From assembly GCA_947382625.1 (NCBI GenBank), contig CANDAG010000032.1, forward strand, positions 1 to 41,769: DNA of 41,769 nucleotides. The letters run 5' to 3'. The DNA comes from an uncultured Lachnospiraceae bacterium. Its GTDB lineage: Bacteria > Bacillota > Clostridia > Lachnospirales > Lachnospiraceae. The translations under genes and the position numbers were made by a program. Positions 7,018 to 41,386 of the stretch are shown here, in pieces (the stretch's first letter is position 1; the number at the start of each line of letters is the position of its first letter). The notes below the pieces were generated by a model. The model was not told where the DNA came from. It searched no databases and was given only the letters and a program-made list of their open reading frames with translations.

Positions 7018-7893
7018 ATGATCGATGGTTATACAAGAGTCTGCGCAGTGATCGGCAATCCCGTGGAGCATACCATGTCGCCGACAATCCACAATACGTT
7101 AGCGCAAAAGCTCTCTCATAATCTGGTATACGTTCCTTTTCGTGTGGAAAAAGGACAGGCGGTTACCGCGGTAAAGGGGGCTTATGCTCTGAATATGCTG
7201 GGGATGAATGTGACGGTTCCCTTTAAAAGCGATGTGATACCGGCGCTTTCAGAGATTGATGAGCTGGCGGAAAAAATCGGGGCGGTAAATACCCTCGTGC
7301 GTGTTAAATCAGGATTTAAAGGGTACAATACCGATATGCCGGGATTGTACCGTGCCATGTGCAGTGAAGGGATAAGACTTGAAGGAGAAAAGGTGGTGCT
7401 GCTGGGGGCGGGAGGCGTAGCAAGGGCGGTCGCCTTTTTGTGTGCTTCCAAAAATGTTTCCAGAGTCTATATGCTGAACCGTTCTCTCCAGAAGGCAGAG
7501 GCATTGGCTGAGGAGGTAAATCAAAAAACAGGAAGAGAATGTATCCTTCCGATGGCTCTTTCTGATCATGAAAGATTGCCGGATGAAAGATTCCTGGCTA
7601 TTCAGGCTACCAGTGAAGGGATGTATCCCAATGTAGGAAAGGCTGTCATTGAGGATGAGTCCTTTTACCAAAAAATACATACAGGCTACGAGCTGATCTT
7701 TAACCCGGCAAATACCCGTTTCATGCAGCTTGTAAGAGCACAGGGGGGCAGAGCCTTCCATGGGCTGAAAATGCTTTTGTATCAGGGGATCATTGCCTAT
7801 GAGCTCTGGAATCAGGTGAGCGTTTCAGAAGACCTTGCAAAAGAAGTATACGAAGCGATGAAGGAAAAAATGGGAGTAACAGATGAAGGATAA
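7018..7893 (+). CDS. aroE: Shikimate dehydrogenase
   Basis: NADP-dependent reduction of 3-dehydroshikimate to shikimate in the chorismate pathway. From the ATG at 7018 the protein has 291 residues. It shows the substrate-binding site VIGNPVEHTMSPTIHN (11-26), catalytic Lys70 in NVTVPFKSD, GYNTDMPG with the catalytic Asp106, the nucleotide loop LLGAGGVARA (about 128-137) and a late ATSEGMYP. The start is chosen because a GGGGG site lies 7 nt upstream. The longer frame from 6913 would read through both leader hairpins. It overlaps aroK by 11 nt, so the two are translationally coupled. Confidence 0.95.
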   Translation: MIDGYTRVCAVIGNPVEHTMSPTIHNTLAQKLSHNLVYVPFRVEKGQAVTAVKGAYALNMLGMNVTVPFKSDVIPALSEIDELAEKIGAVNTLVRVKSGFKGYNTDMPGLYRAMCSEGIRLEGEKVVLLGAGGVARAVAFLCASKNVSRVYMLNRSLQKAEALAEEVNQKTGRECILPMALSDHERLPDERFLAIQATSEGMYPNVGKAVIEDESFYQKIHTGYELIFNPANTRFMQLVRAQGGRAFHGLKMLLYQGIIAYELWNQVSVSEDLAKEVYEAMKEKMGVTDEG

Positions 7894-8395
7894 TATTATA
7901 TTGATCGGTTTTATGGGTTGCGGAAAGACCAGCGTGGGAATCAGGCTGTCTTATCAGATGAAAAGGCCTATGATCGATACGGATAAATGGATCGAACAGA
8001 AACAAAAAATGTCAGTTTCCGGGATTTTTGAGGAGTTCGGGGAGGAAGCCTTCCGGAGGATGGAGACAGAGTGTCTGAGGAGGCTTATCTCGTCTGTGGA
8101 TCATCAGATCATTTCCGTGGGCGGCGGGTTGCCTGTGCGGGAGGAAAATCATAAACTGCTCAGGGAGCTTGGCAGGGTATTTTATTTAAAGGTAAAGCCG
8201 GAGACGGTTTATGACAGGCTGAAAAATGACACTACAAGACCTCTTCTGCAGGTGGATGATCCGAAGGAGAGGATCAGAAATCTGTTGGATCAGCGTGGAC
8301 CTGTTTATGAGGCCTGTGCGGATGTGGTGGTGGATGTGTCTGACAGATCTTTTGATGAGATCATTGGACAGATCATGATGAATTTGGATCAATAA
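7883..8395 (+). CDS. aroK: Shikimate kinase
   Basis: ATP-dependent phosphorylation of shikimate to shikimate 3-phosphate. The 170-residue size is standard. It has Walker A GFMGCGKTSVG (9-19), the shikimate-binding DTD (32-34), Arg in EEAFRRMET (about 58), the GGGLP loop (about 81-85), the lid RPLLQ and the R-NLLDQRGPVYEACA segment. Its ATG overlaps the end of aroE. The stop codon and the two codons before it (GAT CAA TAA) are also the left end of a type A repeat, so the repeat either inserted at, or now supplies, the C-terminus. Confidence 0.95.
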   Translation: MKDNIILIGFMGCGKTSVGIRLSYQMKRPMIDTDKWIEQKQKMSVSGIFEEFGEEAFRRMETECLRRLISSVDHQIISVGGGLPVREENHKLLRELGRVFYLKVKPETVYDRLKNDTTRPLLQVDDPKERIRNLLDQRGPVYEACADVVVDVSDRSFDEIIGQIMMNLDQ

Positions 8396-8424
8396 ACCGG
8401 CGCGCGGAACGTGACAGCGTTTGA
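8387..8424 (+). repeat. Type A palindromic element, copy 1 of a tandem pair
   Basis: Begins GATCAATAA, which contains the aroK stop codon, and ends GCGTTTGA. The inner part GCGCGGAACG keeps the GGA triloop but the arms are only partly complementary. It runs directly into the next copy. Confidence 0.7.
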
Positions 8425-8461
8425 GCAATAAGCCGATCTGCGAAGCGTATCGGCGTTTGCT
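8424..8461 (+). repeat. Type A palindromic element, copy 2 of a tandem pair
   Basis: AGCAATAA, arm GCCGAT, inner TGC-GAA-GCG, arm ATCGGC, GTTTG. The arms pair perfectly. It ends a few bases before GGAAAGGA, the aroQ ribosome site. Nearly identical to 18259-18298. Confidence 0.8.
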
Positions 8462-17019: not shown

Positions 17020-17066
17020 GATCAATAAGCCGGCTCGCGAAGCGAAGCGTGGCGTGCGTGTTTGAT
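17020..17066 (+). repeat. Type A element, copy 1 of a tandem pair
   Basis: GATCAATAA, arm GCCGGC, inner CGC-GAA-GCG with an extra AAGCG, then GCGTG and TTTGAT. It shares its terminal GATC with the next copy. It lies in the leader of the minus-strand chemoreceptor. Confidence 0.75.
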
Positions 17067-17097
17067 CAATAAGCTGCCTCGCAGGGCAGCGTTTAAT
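17064..17097 (+). repeat. Type A element, copy 2 of a tandem pair
   Basis: GATCAATAA, arms GCTGCC / GGCAGC pairing perfectly around TCGCA, then GTTTAATG. The arm sequence differs from copy 1, while pairing is kept. Confidence 0.75.
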
Positions 17098-18258: not shown

Positions 18259-18298
18259 TATCAATAAGCCGATTCGCGGAGCGTATCGGCGTTTGATA
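18259..18298 (+). repeat. Type A palindromic element (best archetype)
   Basis: TATCAATAA, arm GCCGAT, inner CGC-GGA-GCG, arm ATCGGC, GTTTGATA. Three nested pairings: TATCAA / TTGATA ends, GCCGAT / ATCGGC arms and CGC / GCG around the GGA triloop. It lies between the patatin-like gene and the TPR-DUF4037 gene. Confidence 0.85.
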
Positions 18299-22054: not shown

Positions 22055-22092
22055 ATCAAACGCGGACATGCTCCGCGAATCGGCTTATTGAT
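22055..22092 (-). repeat. Type A palindromic element (reverse orientation)
   Basis: On the minus strand: ATCAATAA, GCCGAT, TCGCGGAGC, then ATGTCCGC and GTTTGAT. The ends pair well; the right arm has changed so that GCGGA / TCCGC can pair instead. It directly precedes the MATE terminator. Confidence 0.75.
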
Positions 22093-33700: not shown

Positions 33701-34303
33701 ATGTCAAGATCAGAGGATGTGTACCGGCCTGCGCTGGCCGGCAGAAAGATACCTATACTTACGTTGGACAGCAAGTGGCACCGGCTCTTCAATCAGACTA
33801 AGCCGGATAAGCGCCTGAAGCGTCTGGAGGAAAAGTTAAATGAGCTTTTAAAGAAACAGGGCAAGGCAAACACGGAGATCAAAGAGGTCAAAAGGCTCAA
33901 AAAGAAGCTGATGCAGGAGATTTTGGATAATGCAGAGGCAGCCGCAGGGAATGATGAGCGTGCTGTGAGGAAAGCCGATGAAAACAAGCGTCTGATCAAT
34001 GAGTGCAATGAAAAGATCAAAGAATATGAAGATGAGCTTTTTGAGCTTCCAAGAGAAATTGACAAGGTAAATACAGAGCTGATGCTTGCCACTATGGACA
34101 TATGCTATCACAGATTAAAGGATAATGAAAAGGAGATCGGGGAGATCGCTGAGTGGGTATCGCAGATCCGGACAGAGCTGAAAGAAAAACTGATACGTAA
34201 GCAGGAGATGGAGCAGATGGATCAGGAGCTGTATTCTTACATGCATGATATATTCGGAGCTAATGTGATCGATATATTTGATATGAAATATAACAACGGA
34301 TGA
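33701..34303 (+). CDS. Coiled-coil protein of unknown function downstream of rex
   Basis: 200 residues. The first about 35 form a compact conserved segment (PALAGRKIPILTLDSKWHRLF), and residues about 35-180 are one long Lys/Glu-rich coiled coil (EEKLNELLKKQGKANTEI and similar), followed by a short tail. I recognise no catalytic motif. GGAGGAAA is about 7 nt before the ATG and it is 19 nt after rex, so the two are cotranscribed. A scaffolding or adaptor role is possible but only a guess. Its last codons, including the stop, lie in the adjoining type B repeat. Confidence 0.75.
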   Translation: MSRSEDVYRPALAGRKIPILTLDSKWHRLFNQTKPDKRLKRLEEKLNELLKKQGKANTEIKEVKRLKKKLMQEILDNAEAAAGNDERAVRKADENKRLINECNEKIKEYEDELFELPREIDKVNTELMLATMDICYHRLKDNEKEIGEIAEWVSQIRTELKEKLIRKQEMEQMDQELYSYMHDIFGANVIDIFDMKYNNG

Positions 34304-34328
34304 CAGGCTCCGCCAGCCATCCTTATGT
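34292..34328. repeat. Type B element containing a stop codon
   Basis: AACAACGGATGACAGGC-TCC-GCCAGCCATCCTTATGT (shown in two halves here). GGATG / CATCC and GGC / GCC pair. The TGA in it is the stop codon of the coiled-coil gene. Reversed, it matches the copy at 15613-15645 nearly base for base. Confidence 0.85.
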
Positions 34329-34330
34329 CG

Positions 34331-34368
34331 ATCAAACGCTGCCACGCTCCGCAAGTCAGCTTATTGAT
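34331..34368 (-). repeat. Type A palindromic element (reverse orientation)
   Basis: Minus strand: ATCAATAA, GCTGAC, TTGCGGAGCGT, GGCAGC, GTTTGAT. Arms pair with one mismatch and the ends are exact. It follows the type B copy after 2 nt. Confidence 0.8.
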
Positions 34369-36024: not shown

Positions 36025-36063
36025 ATCCAACGCCGGCATGCTTTGTGACCCGGCCTATTGATC
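36025..36063 (-). repeat. Type A palindromic element before alr (reverse orientation)
   Basis: Minus strand: GATCAATA, GGCCGG, GTCACAAAGCAT, GCCGGC, GTTGGAT. The arm GCCGG / CCGGC is a third arm sequence type and pairs. The alr ribosome site starts 8 nt beyond. Confidence 0.75.
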
Positions 36064-39307: not shown

Positions 39308-40036
39308 ATGTCAGGACATTCAAAATTTGCCAATATCAAACACAAAAAAGAAAAGAACGATGCGGCCAAGGGTAAGATATTTACGATTCTGGGCAGAGAG
39401 ATTGCAGTGGCAGTCAAGGAGGGCGGGGCGGATCCTGCCAACAATTCCAGGCTGGCCCAGGTGATCGCCAAGGCGAAATCTAACAACATGCCAAACGATA
39501 CCATTGAGAGAGGTATCAAAAAAGCTGCCGGGGATGTAGGAAGCGTTAACTACAAATACATAACCTATGAAGGGTATGGACCTAACGGTATTGCTATTAT
39601 CGTGGATGCGCTTACAGATAACCAGAACCGGACGGCGGCAAATGTACGGAACGCCTTTACCAAGGGGAACGGAAATGTAGGAACGCCGGGCTGTGTCTCC
39701 TTTATGTTCGATAAGAAGGGACAGATCATTATCGATAAGGAAGAGTTTGAAGGGGATTCCGATGAGCTGATGATGCTGGCCTTAGACGCCGGGGCGGAGG
39801 ACTTTGGTGAGGAGGAGGACAGCTACGAGGTGCTCACGGATCCGGATGATTTTGATAAAGTTGAGAAGGCGCTTTCAGAAAATAAGATTCCCATGGCTTC
39901 CGCAGAGGTGACGATGATCCCTCAGAACTATGTAGAGCTTACAGATGAAGCTGCGATCAAGAGCCTGCAGAAGATACTTGATCTTTTAGATGAGGATGAT
40001 GATGTACAAGCCGTATACCACAATTGGGACGAATAA
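39308..40036 (+). CDS. yebC: YebC/PmpR family protein
   Basis: Widespread family of DNA-binding-like proteins, also shown to help translation of proline stretches. 242 residues: MSGHSKFANIKHKKEKNDA at the start, then FTILGREIAVAVKEGGADP, YEGYGPNGIAIIVDALTDN (about 87-105) and VRNAFTKGNGNVG. The acidic C-terminal domain ends DLLDEDDDVQAVYHNWDE. AAAGGAGA is about 7 nt before the ATG, and it is 12 nt after the CNNM gene. The last 35 nt overlap the following gene, which may be translated by coupling. Confidence 0.95.
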   Translation: MSGHSKFANIKHKKEKNDAAKGKIFTILGREIAVAVKEGGADPANNSRLAQVIAKAKSNNMPNDTIERGIKKAAGDVGSVNYKYITYEGYGPNGIAIIVDALTDNQNRTAANVRNAFTKGNGNVGTPGCVSFMFDKKGQIIIDKEEFEGDSDELMMLALDAGAEDFGEEEDSYEVLTDPDDFDKVEKALSENKIPMASAEVTMIPQNYVELTDEAAIKSLQKILDLLDEDDDVQAVYHNWDE

Positions 40037-41285
40037 ACAGACACATACGTATGAAATACATAAAGGGATTCGGATTTTTTTTGCCGTCATCTGGTTTCTG
40101 GCGGTGACAGTAAGCAGAGTCTTATATCTTTTCTGTGGCGGAGGCGCCTCGGCGGATACCTATGGACTCTTTGCCCGTGCCATGGTCCGTATGGAGGCGG
40201 GAGCTCCAAGCCTGGATTCCGGACTGGCCTATGCCTACACCAGAAGTCTGTCCAGGCTTCTTAGATTTGCGGGTAATCGTATTGAGGCAGTGACCTTTTA
40301 TCAGATGATACTTCAGATTTTGTGGCTGATCCTGCTTTTTGCCGGGATCAGCCTGTTGTTTGGCTACGTGGCCGGTGCGGTGGCCGGAAGTGTTCTGGCA
40401 GCTTCTCCCTGGATCGTGGCAACAATATTTACGATCTGGCCGGGAAATTATTATATGCTGCACTTTGCGCTGGCGCTTGTTCTGTTGGGAGGCTTTGGCC
40501 GCAGGGCCAAAAAAGAGAGGTGGCCGGCCAATGACTTTTCCAGACTTCTGTTGATCGCCGCCGGCTTTTATGCCGGGGTTCTCTGTATCTGGAATATTCT
40601 GGGGATTTTGCTGGCATTTGTCATGGTCTATATCCTGCTGCGAAATTATTTATCCTTCAGAAAAGAGCATGTCTGCAAAAAGGAAGAAACAGAGGCAGAG
40701 CCTGCCCACGGGGCAAAACGCCGGGCAATGGGAGCAGGGACTCAGGCGGCGGTTTTAGGAGAGGGAATCCTGTTTGGTATATTTGCCACGTTGATGAAAT
40801 ATACGGGGGTCACCGGAGAGGCAATCGCCGGTCAGGCAATGTGGTGGCTTTCACAGCTGAAAAATCCTTTTGCACAATATAGAGAAATGCAGATTCCACT
40901 GATTGGCTGGCTTTTGGGGGCTGTGGGGGCAGGCATTTTGTGTCAGCTTCTTTTCTTACAGGCGATCAAACGCCGATACGCTTCGGAAACCGGCTTATTG
41001 ACGAAGAAAAAGGAACTGTCCACAGAGGATGAACGAAGGGATAAGACGCCGGGGAGAATGGACGGTTATGGAAAGGAAACAGAAAAAGAAATGACAGCGA
41101 AGGGAGAAGAGGGGAAGTATATCATTACGGAAGACGGAAGAAGAATCAAGCTGTTGGATAATCCGCTGCCCGGTCCCAAAAAGCATGTCAGGAGAGAAAT
41201 GGATTTCGACTTTGATATAGAAGAGGAAGTAAAGGACGATTTTGACATCAAGATCAAAGACGGCGATGATTTTGATTTTGAGTAA
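40002..41285 (+). CDS. Multi-pass membrane protein with acidic Asp/Phe C-terminal tail
   Basis: About 427 residues. The first 300 contain eight or nine hydrophobic segments (for example IRIFFAVIWFLAVTVSRVL, MILQILWLILLFAGISLLFG and IPLIGWLLGAVGAGILCQLL), so it spans the membrane. The luminal YMLHFALALVLLGG and general look recall Lachnospiraceae glycosyltransferase-39-like proteins, yet I see no catalytic motif. The tail (about 365-427) is soluble and ends in DFDFDIEEEVKDDFDI and DDFDFE. ATG 40002 is chosen over three upstream ATGs since GAGG sits 6 nt away. A type A repeat is part of the coding sequence at 40964-41003. Confidence 0.72.
   Translation: MYKPYTTIGTNKQTHTYEIHKGIRIFFAVIWFLAVTVSRVLYLFCGGGASADTYGLFARAMVRMEAGAPSLDSGLAYAYTRSLSRLLRFAGNRIEAVTFYQMILQILWLILLFAGISLLFGYVAGAVAGSVLAASPWIVATIFTIWPGNYYMLHFALALVLLGGFGRRAKKERWPANDFSRLLLIAAGFYAGVLCIWNILGILLAFVMVYILLRNYLSFRKEHVCKKEETEAEPAHGAKRRAMGAGTQAAVLGEGILFGIFATLMKYTGVTGEAIAGQAMWWLSQLKNPFAQYREMQIPLIGWLLGAVGAGILCQLLFLQAIKRRYASETGLLTKKKELSTEDERRDKTPGRMDGYGKETEKEMTAKGEEGKYIITEDGRRIKLLDNPLPGPKKHVRREMDFDFDIEEEVKDDFDIKIKDGDDFDFE
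40964..41003 (-). repeat. Type A palindromic element inside a coding sequence
   Basis: Minus strand: GTCAATAA, GCCGGT, TTCCGAAGCGT, ATCGGC, GTTTGATC. Arms pair (one G-U). It lies in the hinge between the last membrane segment and the soluble tail and adds about 13 residues (AIKRRYASETGLL) without a stop or frameshift. Confidence 0.8.
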
Positions 41286-41345: not shown

Positions 41346-41386
41346 GATTCAATAAGCTGTCTCACAAAGTGGGACAGCGTTTGATG
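41346..41386 (+). repeat. Type A palindromic element upstream of tepA
   Basis: GATTCAATAA, arm GCTGTC, inner CAC-AAA-GTG, arm GACAGC, GTTTGATG. Both arms and the inner stem differ from the archetype at 18259 yet still pair. AAAAGGAG, the next ribosome site, starts 2 nt later. Confidence 0.85.

Follow-up and report, generated by a model that had tools for sequence, protein, structure and literature searches.

REPs are imperfect palindromes of 20-50 nt with an unpaired 5' motif, the GTAG (or CGTC) tag, and an irregular stem, which occur in high copy number, mostly between genes and with strand polarity. According to PMC8266576, their spread is tied to RAYT (TnpA-REP) enzymes, known largely from gamma-proteobacteria, and both TnpA-REP and IS200/IS605 enzymes act on single-stranded hairpins. 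The IS200/IS605 element ISDra2 is reported to insert 3' of TTGAT (PMC2806898) and, together with IS608, to target the lagging-strand template (PMC6006769). Rickettsia palindromic elements (RPEs), given as about 150 bp long (PMC10969869), form in-frame palindromic inserts in unrelated protein genes. MITEs (RUP, BOX and others) are non-autonomous, dispersed and folded.

Here, we analysed a stretch of 41,769 nt (contig CANDAG010000032.1 of assembly GCA_947382625.1; the whole stretch is called the window) from a Lachnospiraceae MAG, whose relatives are recorded as gut or faecal MAGs and isolates. It contains a dispersed family of hairpins of 36-38 nt, here called type A, whose folded shape is conserved and whose copies look mobile. 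We consider it probable that type A is a non-autonomous, REP-like mobile hairpin, moved in trans as folded single-stranded DNA by a candidate HuH-type enzyme. Type A works like a REP but fails the tests for REP tag and RAYT, and is hence not classed as one. The likeness to REPs proposed in a first-pass annotation of the sequence thus held for size, dispersal, copy number and palindrome, but not for GTAG tag, linked RAYT and BIME pairs. Instead of the tag, type A has a 5' CAATAAG and a 3' GTTTG; no RAYT was found linked to it or bordered by it in the draft genomes searched; and neighbouring model matches less than 200 nt apart (11 pairs) stack mostly head to tail (8 on the same strand, 3 on opposite strands) and not as REP/iREP pairs. 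Furthermore, type A inserts behind T-runs and has in-frame copies in genes. It shares the latter trait with RPEs, but is 36-38 nt long, occurs in Lachnospiraceae and lies mainly between genes, a distinction drawn against the description of RPEs and not against their sequences. With IS200/IS605 elements (IS608, ISDra2) it would have in common single-strand hairpin recognition, insertion 3' of a short target and the lagging-strand template, whereas it has no gene, one hairpin instead of two ends and no autonomous parent that we could find. Compared to MITEs it is far shorter and has a polar T-rich target, with no target duplication in the few sites examined. Searches of open-licence full texts for REP or palindromic repeats in Lachnospiraceae, Firmicutes or Clostridium turned up no paper on the type A family.

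Fold of the type A repeat and its copies in the window

The top strand of type A, ATCAATAAG...GCGTTTGAT, has conserved ends (CAATAAG in the 5' part, GTTTG at the 3' end) and is laid out as an outer stem, a short unpaired AAUAA/GU, a 6-bp stem, a T.T mismatch, a 3-bp GC stem and mostly a GNA triloop. The copy cited first spans exactly 18260-18297 (38 nt). With a covariance model of 17 type A copies, based on the structure (((((...((((((.(((...))).))))))..))))), and with filters switched off, we found nine window positions with E-values up to 1.1e-5 (18260, 34331, 22055, 8424, 40965, 41348, 36025, 8390 and 17065); a tenth at 17023 is marginal (E 0.44), and the next match after it has an E-value of 1.2. 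According to the model, all copies located by the first-pass annotation are present in the window, the one at 17020 being enlarged, eroded and marginal. The repeats of the window are as follows:

8388..8425, + strand: type A, first of a tandem pair (model match 8390-8423, E 1.4e-6)
8424..8461, + strand: type A, second of the tandem pair, outer pair G-C (AG...CT); 57.7 bits
15612..15645, + strand: type B (CATAAG-GATGGC...GACATC-CGTTG), sister family of the same layout (pattern search and fold)
17021..17066, + strand: type A, eroded and enlarged, junction with the next copy TTTGATCAATAAG; 13.9 bits, E 0.44, marginal
17065..17097, + strand: type A, shortened (33 nt); 31.1 bits
18260..18297, + strand: type A, the copy cited first, consensus-like, 5' flank TTTTAT; 66.4 bits, folds computed
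22055..22092, - strand: type A, 5' side adjoining the T-tract of a terminator-like hairpin (A-run after 22092 on the + strand); model match
34293..34327, - strand: type B, head to tail with the type A copy 34331-34368 (pattern search)
34331..34368, - strand: type A beside a type B repeat; model match
36025..36062, - strand: type A, 5' flank CTCTTTTTG; model match
40965..41002, - strand: type A, within the 431-aa ORF 39990-41285 (without Pfam match), antisense and in frame; model match
41348..41385, + strand: type A, inner hairpin CAC-AAA-GTG; 51.4 bits

Rfam at gathering thresholds returned only a tRNA from the window and no family for the type A repeat. ORF 7883-8395 ends by a repeat-supplied stop, as its TAA sits inside the type A copy 8388..8425 (window 8388-8395, GATCAATAA). 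The type B consensus, CATAAG-GATGnC-T-GGC-GAA-GCC-T-GnCATC-CGTTG with variants, occurs by strict pattern in 19 places of the host genome stretches searched, mostly with a T-rich 5' side, and type B mixes with type A in arrays, some of them tandem.

Paired changes in the middle arm and the inner hairpin had been taken as a sign that a folded shape is being kept. These changes are real in the aligned copies, and their covariation was assessed statistically. Among 133 aligned copies of the host genome (125 distinct rows, in an alignment fitted to the covariance model), standard pairs occupy 90.4% of the cells, and the covariation score of 0.211 exceeds both shuffled alignments (0.139 +/- 0.005) and slid structures (at most 0.073). 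Since copies of one genome are related, we employed a tree-based null on 120 distinct ungapped 38-mers, in which the substitutions of each column were re-placed on the branches (400 nulls). Four of five measures lay above this expectation from phylogeny: doubly changed cells (101 vs 22 +/- 10; 0/400 nulls as high), paired cells (90.2% vs 83.0%; 0/400), further pair types (28 vs 20.7; 0/400) and covariation score (0.216 vs 0.135; 3/400). The fifth, the number of pairs changed on both sides, did not differ significantly (9 vs 6.5; 40/400). A second set from other genomes (58 matches, 43 distinct) scored 0.279, compared to 0.148 for shuffled and at most 0.136 for slid structures.

All four Watson-Crick combinations are seen at pair 2/37, and together they make up 157 of 173 copies counted as distinct within each of 22 genomes (T-A 111, A-T 21, C-G 20, G-C 5; further T-G 6, other 10). 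Its form differs by genome, with T-A in 103 of 120 copies of the host genome (G000), A-T in 9/9 of G019, G035, G029 and G023, and C-G in 19/24 of G034, G003 and G124. Position 13/27 is a tolerated mismatch with a standard pair in 53 of 128 copies; the 13 other pairs are all kept in 59 and broken at one or more places in 69 of these. Position 15/25 is T.T in 97/128 copies. Of 128 host-genome copies, 114 have a GNA triloop; this loop is not universal, as G034 has AAA loops. A stable RNA fold was obtained for three of the four copies folded; the copy at 34331 folds weakly (DNA z -1.70, RNA z -0.78).

We conclude that type A is one family with a conserved folded shape. Covariation is equally compatible with RNA and DNA folds. 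GNA loops are best known from stable DNA hairpins. GCGAAGC-type DNA hairpins are called extraordinarily stable (PMC10527192). Of the earlier reading as 'RNA or cruciform DNA', the kept shape stands; as to its form, the polar T-rich target, the GNA triloops and the strand bias favour folded single-stranded DNA, with RNA also compatible.

Copy number, insertion sites and movement

The 4.18-Mb host genome yielded at least 131 type A matches at E <= 1, a floor since 150 of 1795 candidates were scored and the strong window copies 41348 and 36025 were absent among them. A re-search of 80 stretches (133 + 8 matches, one both-strand place dropped) gave at least 140 distinct places, and the family is thus not confined to few copies outside the window. 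As a control, 634,759 bases from 31 relatives, surrounding the orthologues of a single window gene, contained no match at E <= 0.01 and one at 0.23. The search of related Lachnospiraceae, which had been proposed along with the first-pass annotation, detected type A at E <= 1e-4 in 28 of 60 genomes (host included), all of them among the 36 of its own genus, and in none of 24 genomes from other families of the order (model search, same threshold). Family-wide, type A was present in 4/299 genomes and 3/298 genera, namely the own genus and those of G124 (at least 16 copies) and G295 (one listed copy); this search was shallow and would miss weaker relatives, as 22 candidates per genome were scored.

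Among the 140 places, 92 lie between mechanical ORFs, 40 inside and 8 at edges. Those between ORFs comprise 58 co-directional (36 on the same strand, 22 opposite), 23 convergent and 11 divergent positions. The 5' side of the copies is T-rich: of the 79 full-length copies that no other unit precedes, 48 have a T-run of at least four within the 9 nt upstream, compared to a background of 4.8% of 20,000 9-mers from the same loci, and the 5' T-run is also seen in 11/17 full-length copies of G124, which belongs to another genus. On the downstream side, such a run within 9 nt occurs in 4 of 108 copies. A terminator-like hairpin abuts the 5' T-run in 32/79 cases, while 200 upstream shuffles gave a mean of 3.9 and a maximum of 8, a control that does not correct for a general proximity to gene ends. 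Some T-rich targets have no such hairpin, and some lie inside frames. We rejected a reading of type A itself as an intrinsic terminator, given that its T-run lies 5' of the element and rarely 3'.

A further unit or remnant was found alongside 60 of 128 full-length copies (loose patterns), and head-to-tail junctions have a period of 36 (GTTTGATCAATAAG), 37 or 38 nt. Units of the host genome end in TTTGAT and stack with this end directly followed by CAATAAG, while those of other species end in TTGTT or TTGGT. The exact insertion junction can be placed to within about 2 nt, and no target-site duplication was evident in the few sites aligned (ECF gene; G019/G035 loci).

Comparison of close relatives revealed differences in both presence and unit number. 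G019 and G035 are 93-95% identical in their matched pieces. Behind one terminator, G019 has two units and G035 a single one (37-nt difference), whereas G004 and G008 have the terminator with none; G013 has neither that terminator nor the unit. A second copy is present in G019, eroded in G013 and absent in G035, G004 and G008. At a site that is contiguous in G009, G034 has an additional 133 nt, made up of two tandem copies and some unrelated DNA. These differences, together with in-frame gene insertions absent in orthologues (see below), support the mobile origin that had been suspected. The copy L299:15262 is uninformative on recent movement, being shared in eroded form by G019 and G035. For the copy 18260-18297, a clean empty site was not obtained among the orthologous loci (30 loci, those with both anchors compared; L087 and L119 are the same contig): the gap measures 104 nt in G000 and its closest relative G012, where it includes an eroded GGCGTTTG stretch; in nine others it spans 20-42 nt and in one 205 nt. 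Two other dispersed elements were noticed, a distinct one of about 220 nt at L299:15650-15875, for which G035 has many further matches and G013 and G004 have some (among the matches listed), and one of about 120-150 nt at L288:12179-12330, which is matched many times in both G009 and G034.

The G-rich strand usually has the sequence of the leading strand and serves as the template for the lagging strand. The element strand coincides with the G-rich strand in 94/140 copies (GC skew by contig, p = 6e-5) and in 64/91 of those on contigs with at least 4.5 kb analysed and clear skew, although GC skew from short stretches is a proxy for replication direction and copies in tandem are not independent of each other. 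Counting a single copy per locus, without the window, gives 71/107 (p = 0.0009). No bias towards the majority coding strand was found (47/107), and the window's own contig lacks the G-rich-strand bias (4 and 4). The type A family may serve as a marker of lagging-strand-template insertion.

Candidate movers and rival explanations

We suggest the following mode of spread. The top strand would fold as single-stranded DNA into an imperfect hairpin. An enzyme working in trans and able to cut and join single strands of DNA, in all likelihood a HuH-type one, would take the folded strand from the lagging-strand template. It would be joined to the 3' side of a T-rich target (CTTTT-n), in many cases the T-tract belonging to an intrinsic terminator, and further units would stack head to tail with the 36-38-nt period. 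Insertions into genes might sometimes be retained in frame, the antisense strand being open. We infer the handling of single-stranded DNA and the HuH-type enzyme from these features, and the unpaired AATAA might act as a guide.

The first-pass annotation had proposed to look for a RAYT-type transposase elsewhere in the genome. No RAYT was found in the own genome or the genus by scans with PF01797 and the RAYT and IS200 models, an absence that is not final in draft assemblies. The single Y1 gene that PF01797 identified in the own genome is an IS200/IS605 tnpA with a tnpB-like frame next to it; across the genus, 21/37 genomes had matches. Of the 34 places listed, 25 Y1 proteins were scanned: every one matches the IS200 model, and 19 give an additional weak match to the RAYT model. 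Neither type A copies nor hairpins of the ATAAG...CGTT type were detected in 30 Y1 loci of the genus, the ends being unlike those of the resident IS200/IS605. Eight of the 23 genus genomes with at least four copies have no PF01797 match, including G007 (100% complete), G003 (100%), G013 (98%) and G020 (94%, with 49 type A matches), and G124 (61% complete) has none either. Y1 genes are present in 15/23 copy-rich and 5/13 copy-poor genomes of the genus, which gives no clear association. G295 encodes a 258-aa Y1-type protein (L358:1474-2250), of which the searched 114-aa part scores higher against the RAYT model than against the IS200 model, with 41.4 bits compared to a RAYT cut-off of 80 and below the cut-offs of both models. 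Its gene lies between GTPase-like and RsgA-like frames (by sequence reading) and has no type A copy beside it.

These results bear on several alternatives. Type A could be a true REP family, the RAYT of which is missing from the draft genomes or was lost after spread. Size, mismatched hairpin, copy number, intergenic bias and strand polarity are indeed alike, the own genome is 88% complete and the G295 protein leans to the RAYT model; the missing GTAG/CGTC tag, the Y1 loci devoid of copies, including that of G295, and the copy-rich genomes without Y1 match make this origin unlikely in our view. Mobilisation in trans by a resident IS200/IS605 TnpA would fit the TTTGAT end of the host's units, which resembles the ISDra2 target TTGAT, and the somewhat more frequent Y1 genes in copy-rich genomes. 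As the Y1 loci contain no matching hairpin, eight copy-rich genomes lack a Y1 match and other species' units end differently, we regard it as very improbable and the least credible of the readings considered here.

Two further readings involve RNA. Class C group II introns insert behind terminator-like hairpins, and a group II intron-like reverse transcriptase might have inserted a hairpin RNA behind terminator T-tracts in a similar manner, in line with the 32 copies right behind such a hairpin and its T-run. This route appears improbable given the T-rich targets without terminator-like hairpin and inside frames, the G-rich-strand bias and the triloops best known from stable DNA hairpins. We likewise give little credence to a cis-regulatory RNA, such as an attenuator or a stabiliser of mRNA 3' ends, which would be selected in place and not mobile: the stable RNA folds, compensatory changes and mostly intergenic positions would suit it, but the 140 copies have no fixed place or orientation, copies are present or absent between close relatives, no Rfam family was found in the window and, lacking a 3' T-run, type A is not itself a terminator. 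Transfer of a folded DNA strand by a probable HuH-type enzyme remains the reading we prefer. A REP-like, recently active family in Lachnospiraceae without detected RAYT opens the movement of REPs to tests in gut isolates that can be cultured, and the unit-number differences between close relatives offer a possible assay for movement.

Copies inside genes

Of the 40 copies located inside mechanical ORFs of at least 70 aa, 37 are antisense. This bias follows from the sequence, given the stops on the forward strand. In antisense, two of the three frames are open, and some gene insertions can therefore be kept in frame. Many of the ORFs holding copies may be chance. Three cases are supported, an ECF S-component, an ABC ATPase and, more weakly, a pterin/B12 enzyme. 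The in-frame insert of the ECF gene is absent from 11/11 aligned orthologues (net 111 nt compared to ten of them, 105 nt compared to one; nine weaker matches with at most 35-50% identity were left out), and two clear overlapping units account for 74 nt together, the remainder being eroded. In the ABC ATPase, the copy lies in the segment that links the Walker B region to the H-loop and forms a 17-residue insert relative to both domains of one solved chain. For the pterin/B12 enzyme (L214), a linker insertion is plausible but weak, since the linker varies among relatives. PARCEL coding repeats, described as a 25-residue amphipathic motif, were considered and rejected.

The in-frame copies show a route for adding peptides to proteins outside obligate intracellular bacteria. 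More tentatively, type A might be a minimal single-stranded DNA element whose mover belongs neither to the RAYTs nor to the IS200/IS605 transposases. Such an enzyme would place the 36-38-nt hairpins on the lagging-strand template, downstream of T-runs (on their 3' side), and the open antisense frames and in-frame insertions would enable the element to seed short peptides into proteins. We consider this wider proposal possible, though doubtful; if true, type A would be a free-living counterpart of the Rickettsia palindromic elements.

Two frames of the host genome, L203 and L188, hold two copies each, the latter without a match to a solved structure. A sigma-factor-like frame (L015, by sequence reading) ends in a repeat-encoded peptide and similar degenerate repeats.
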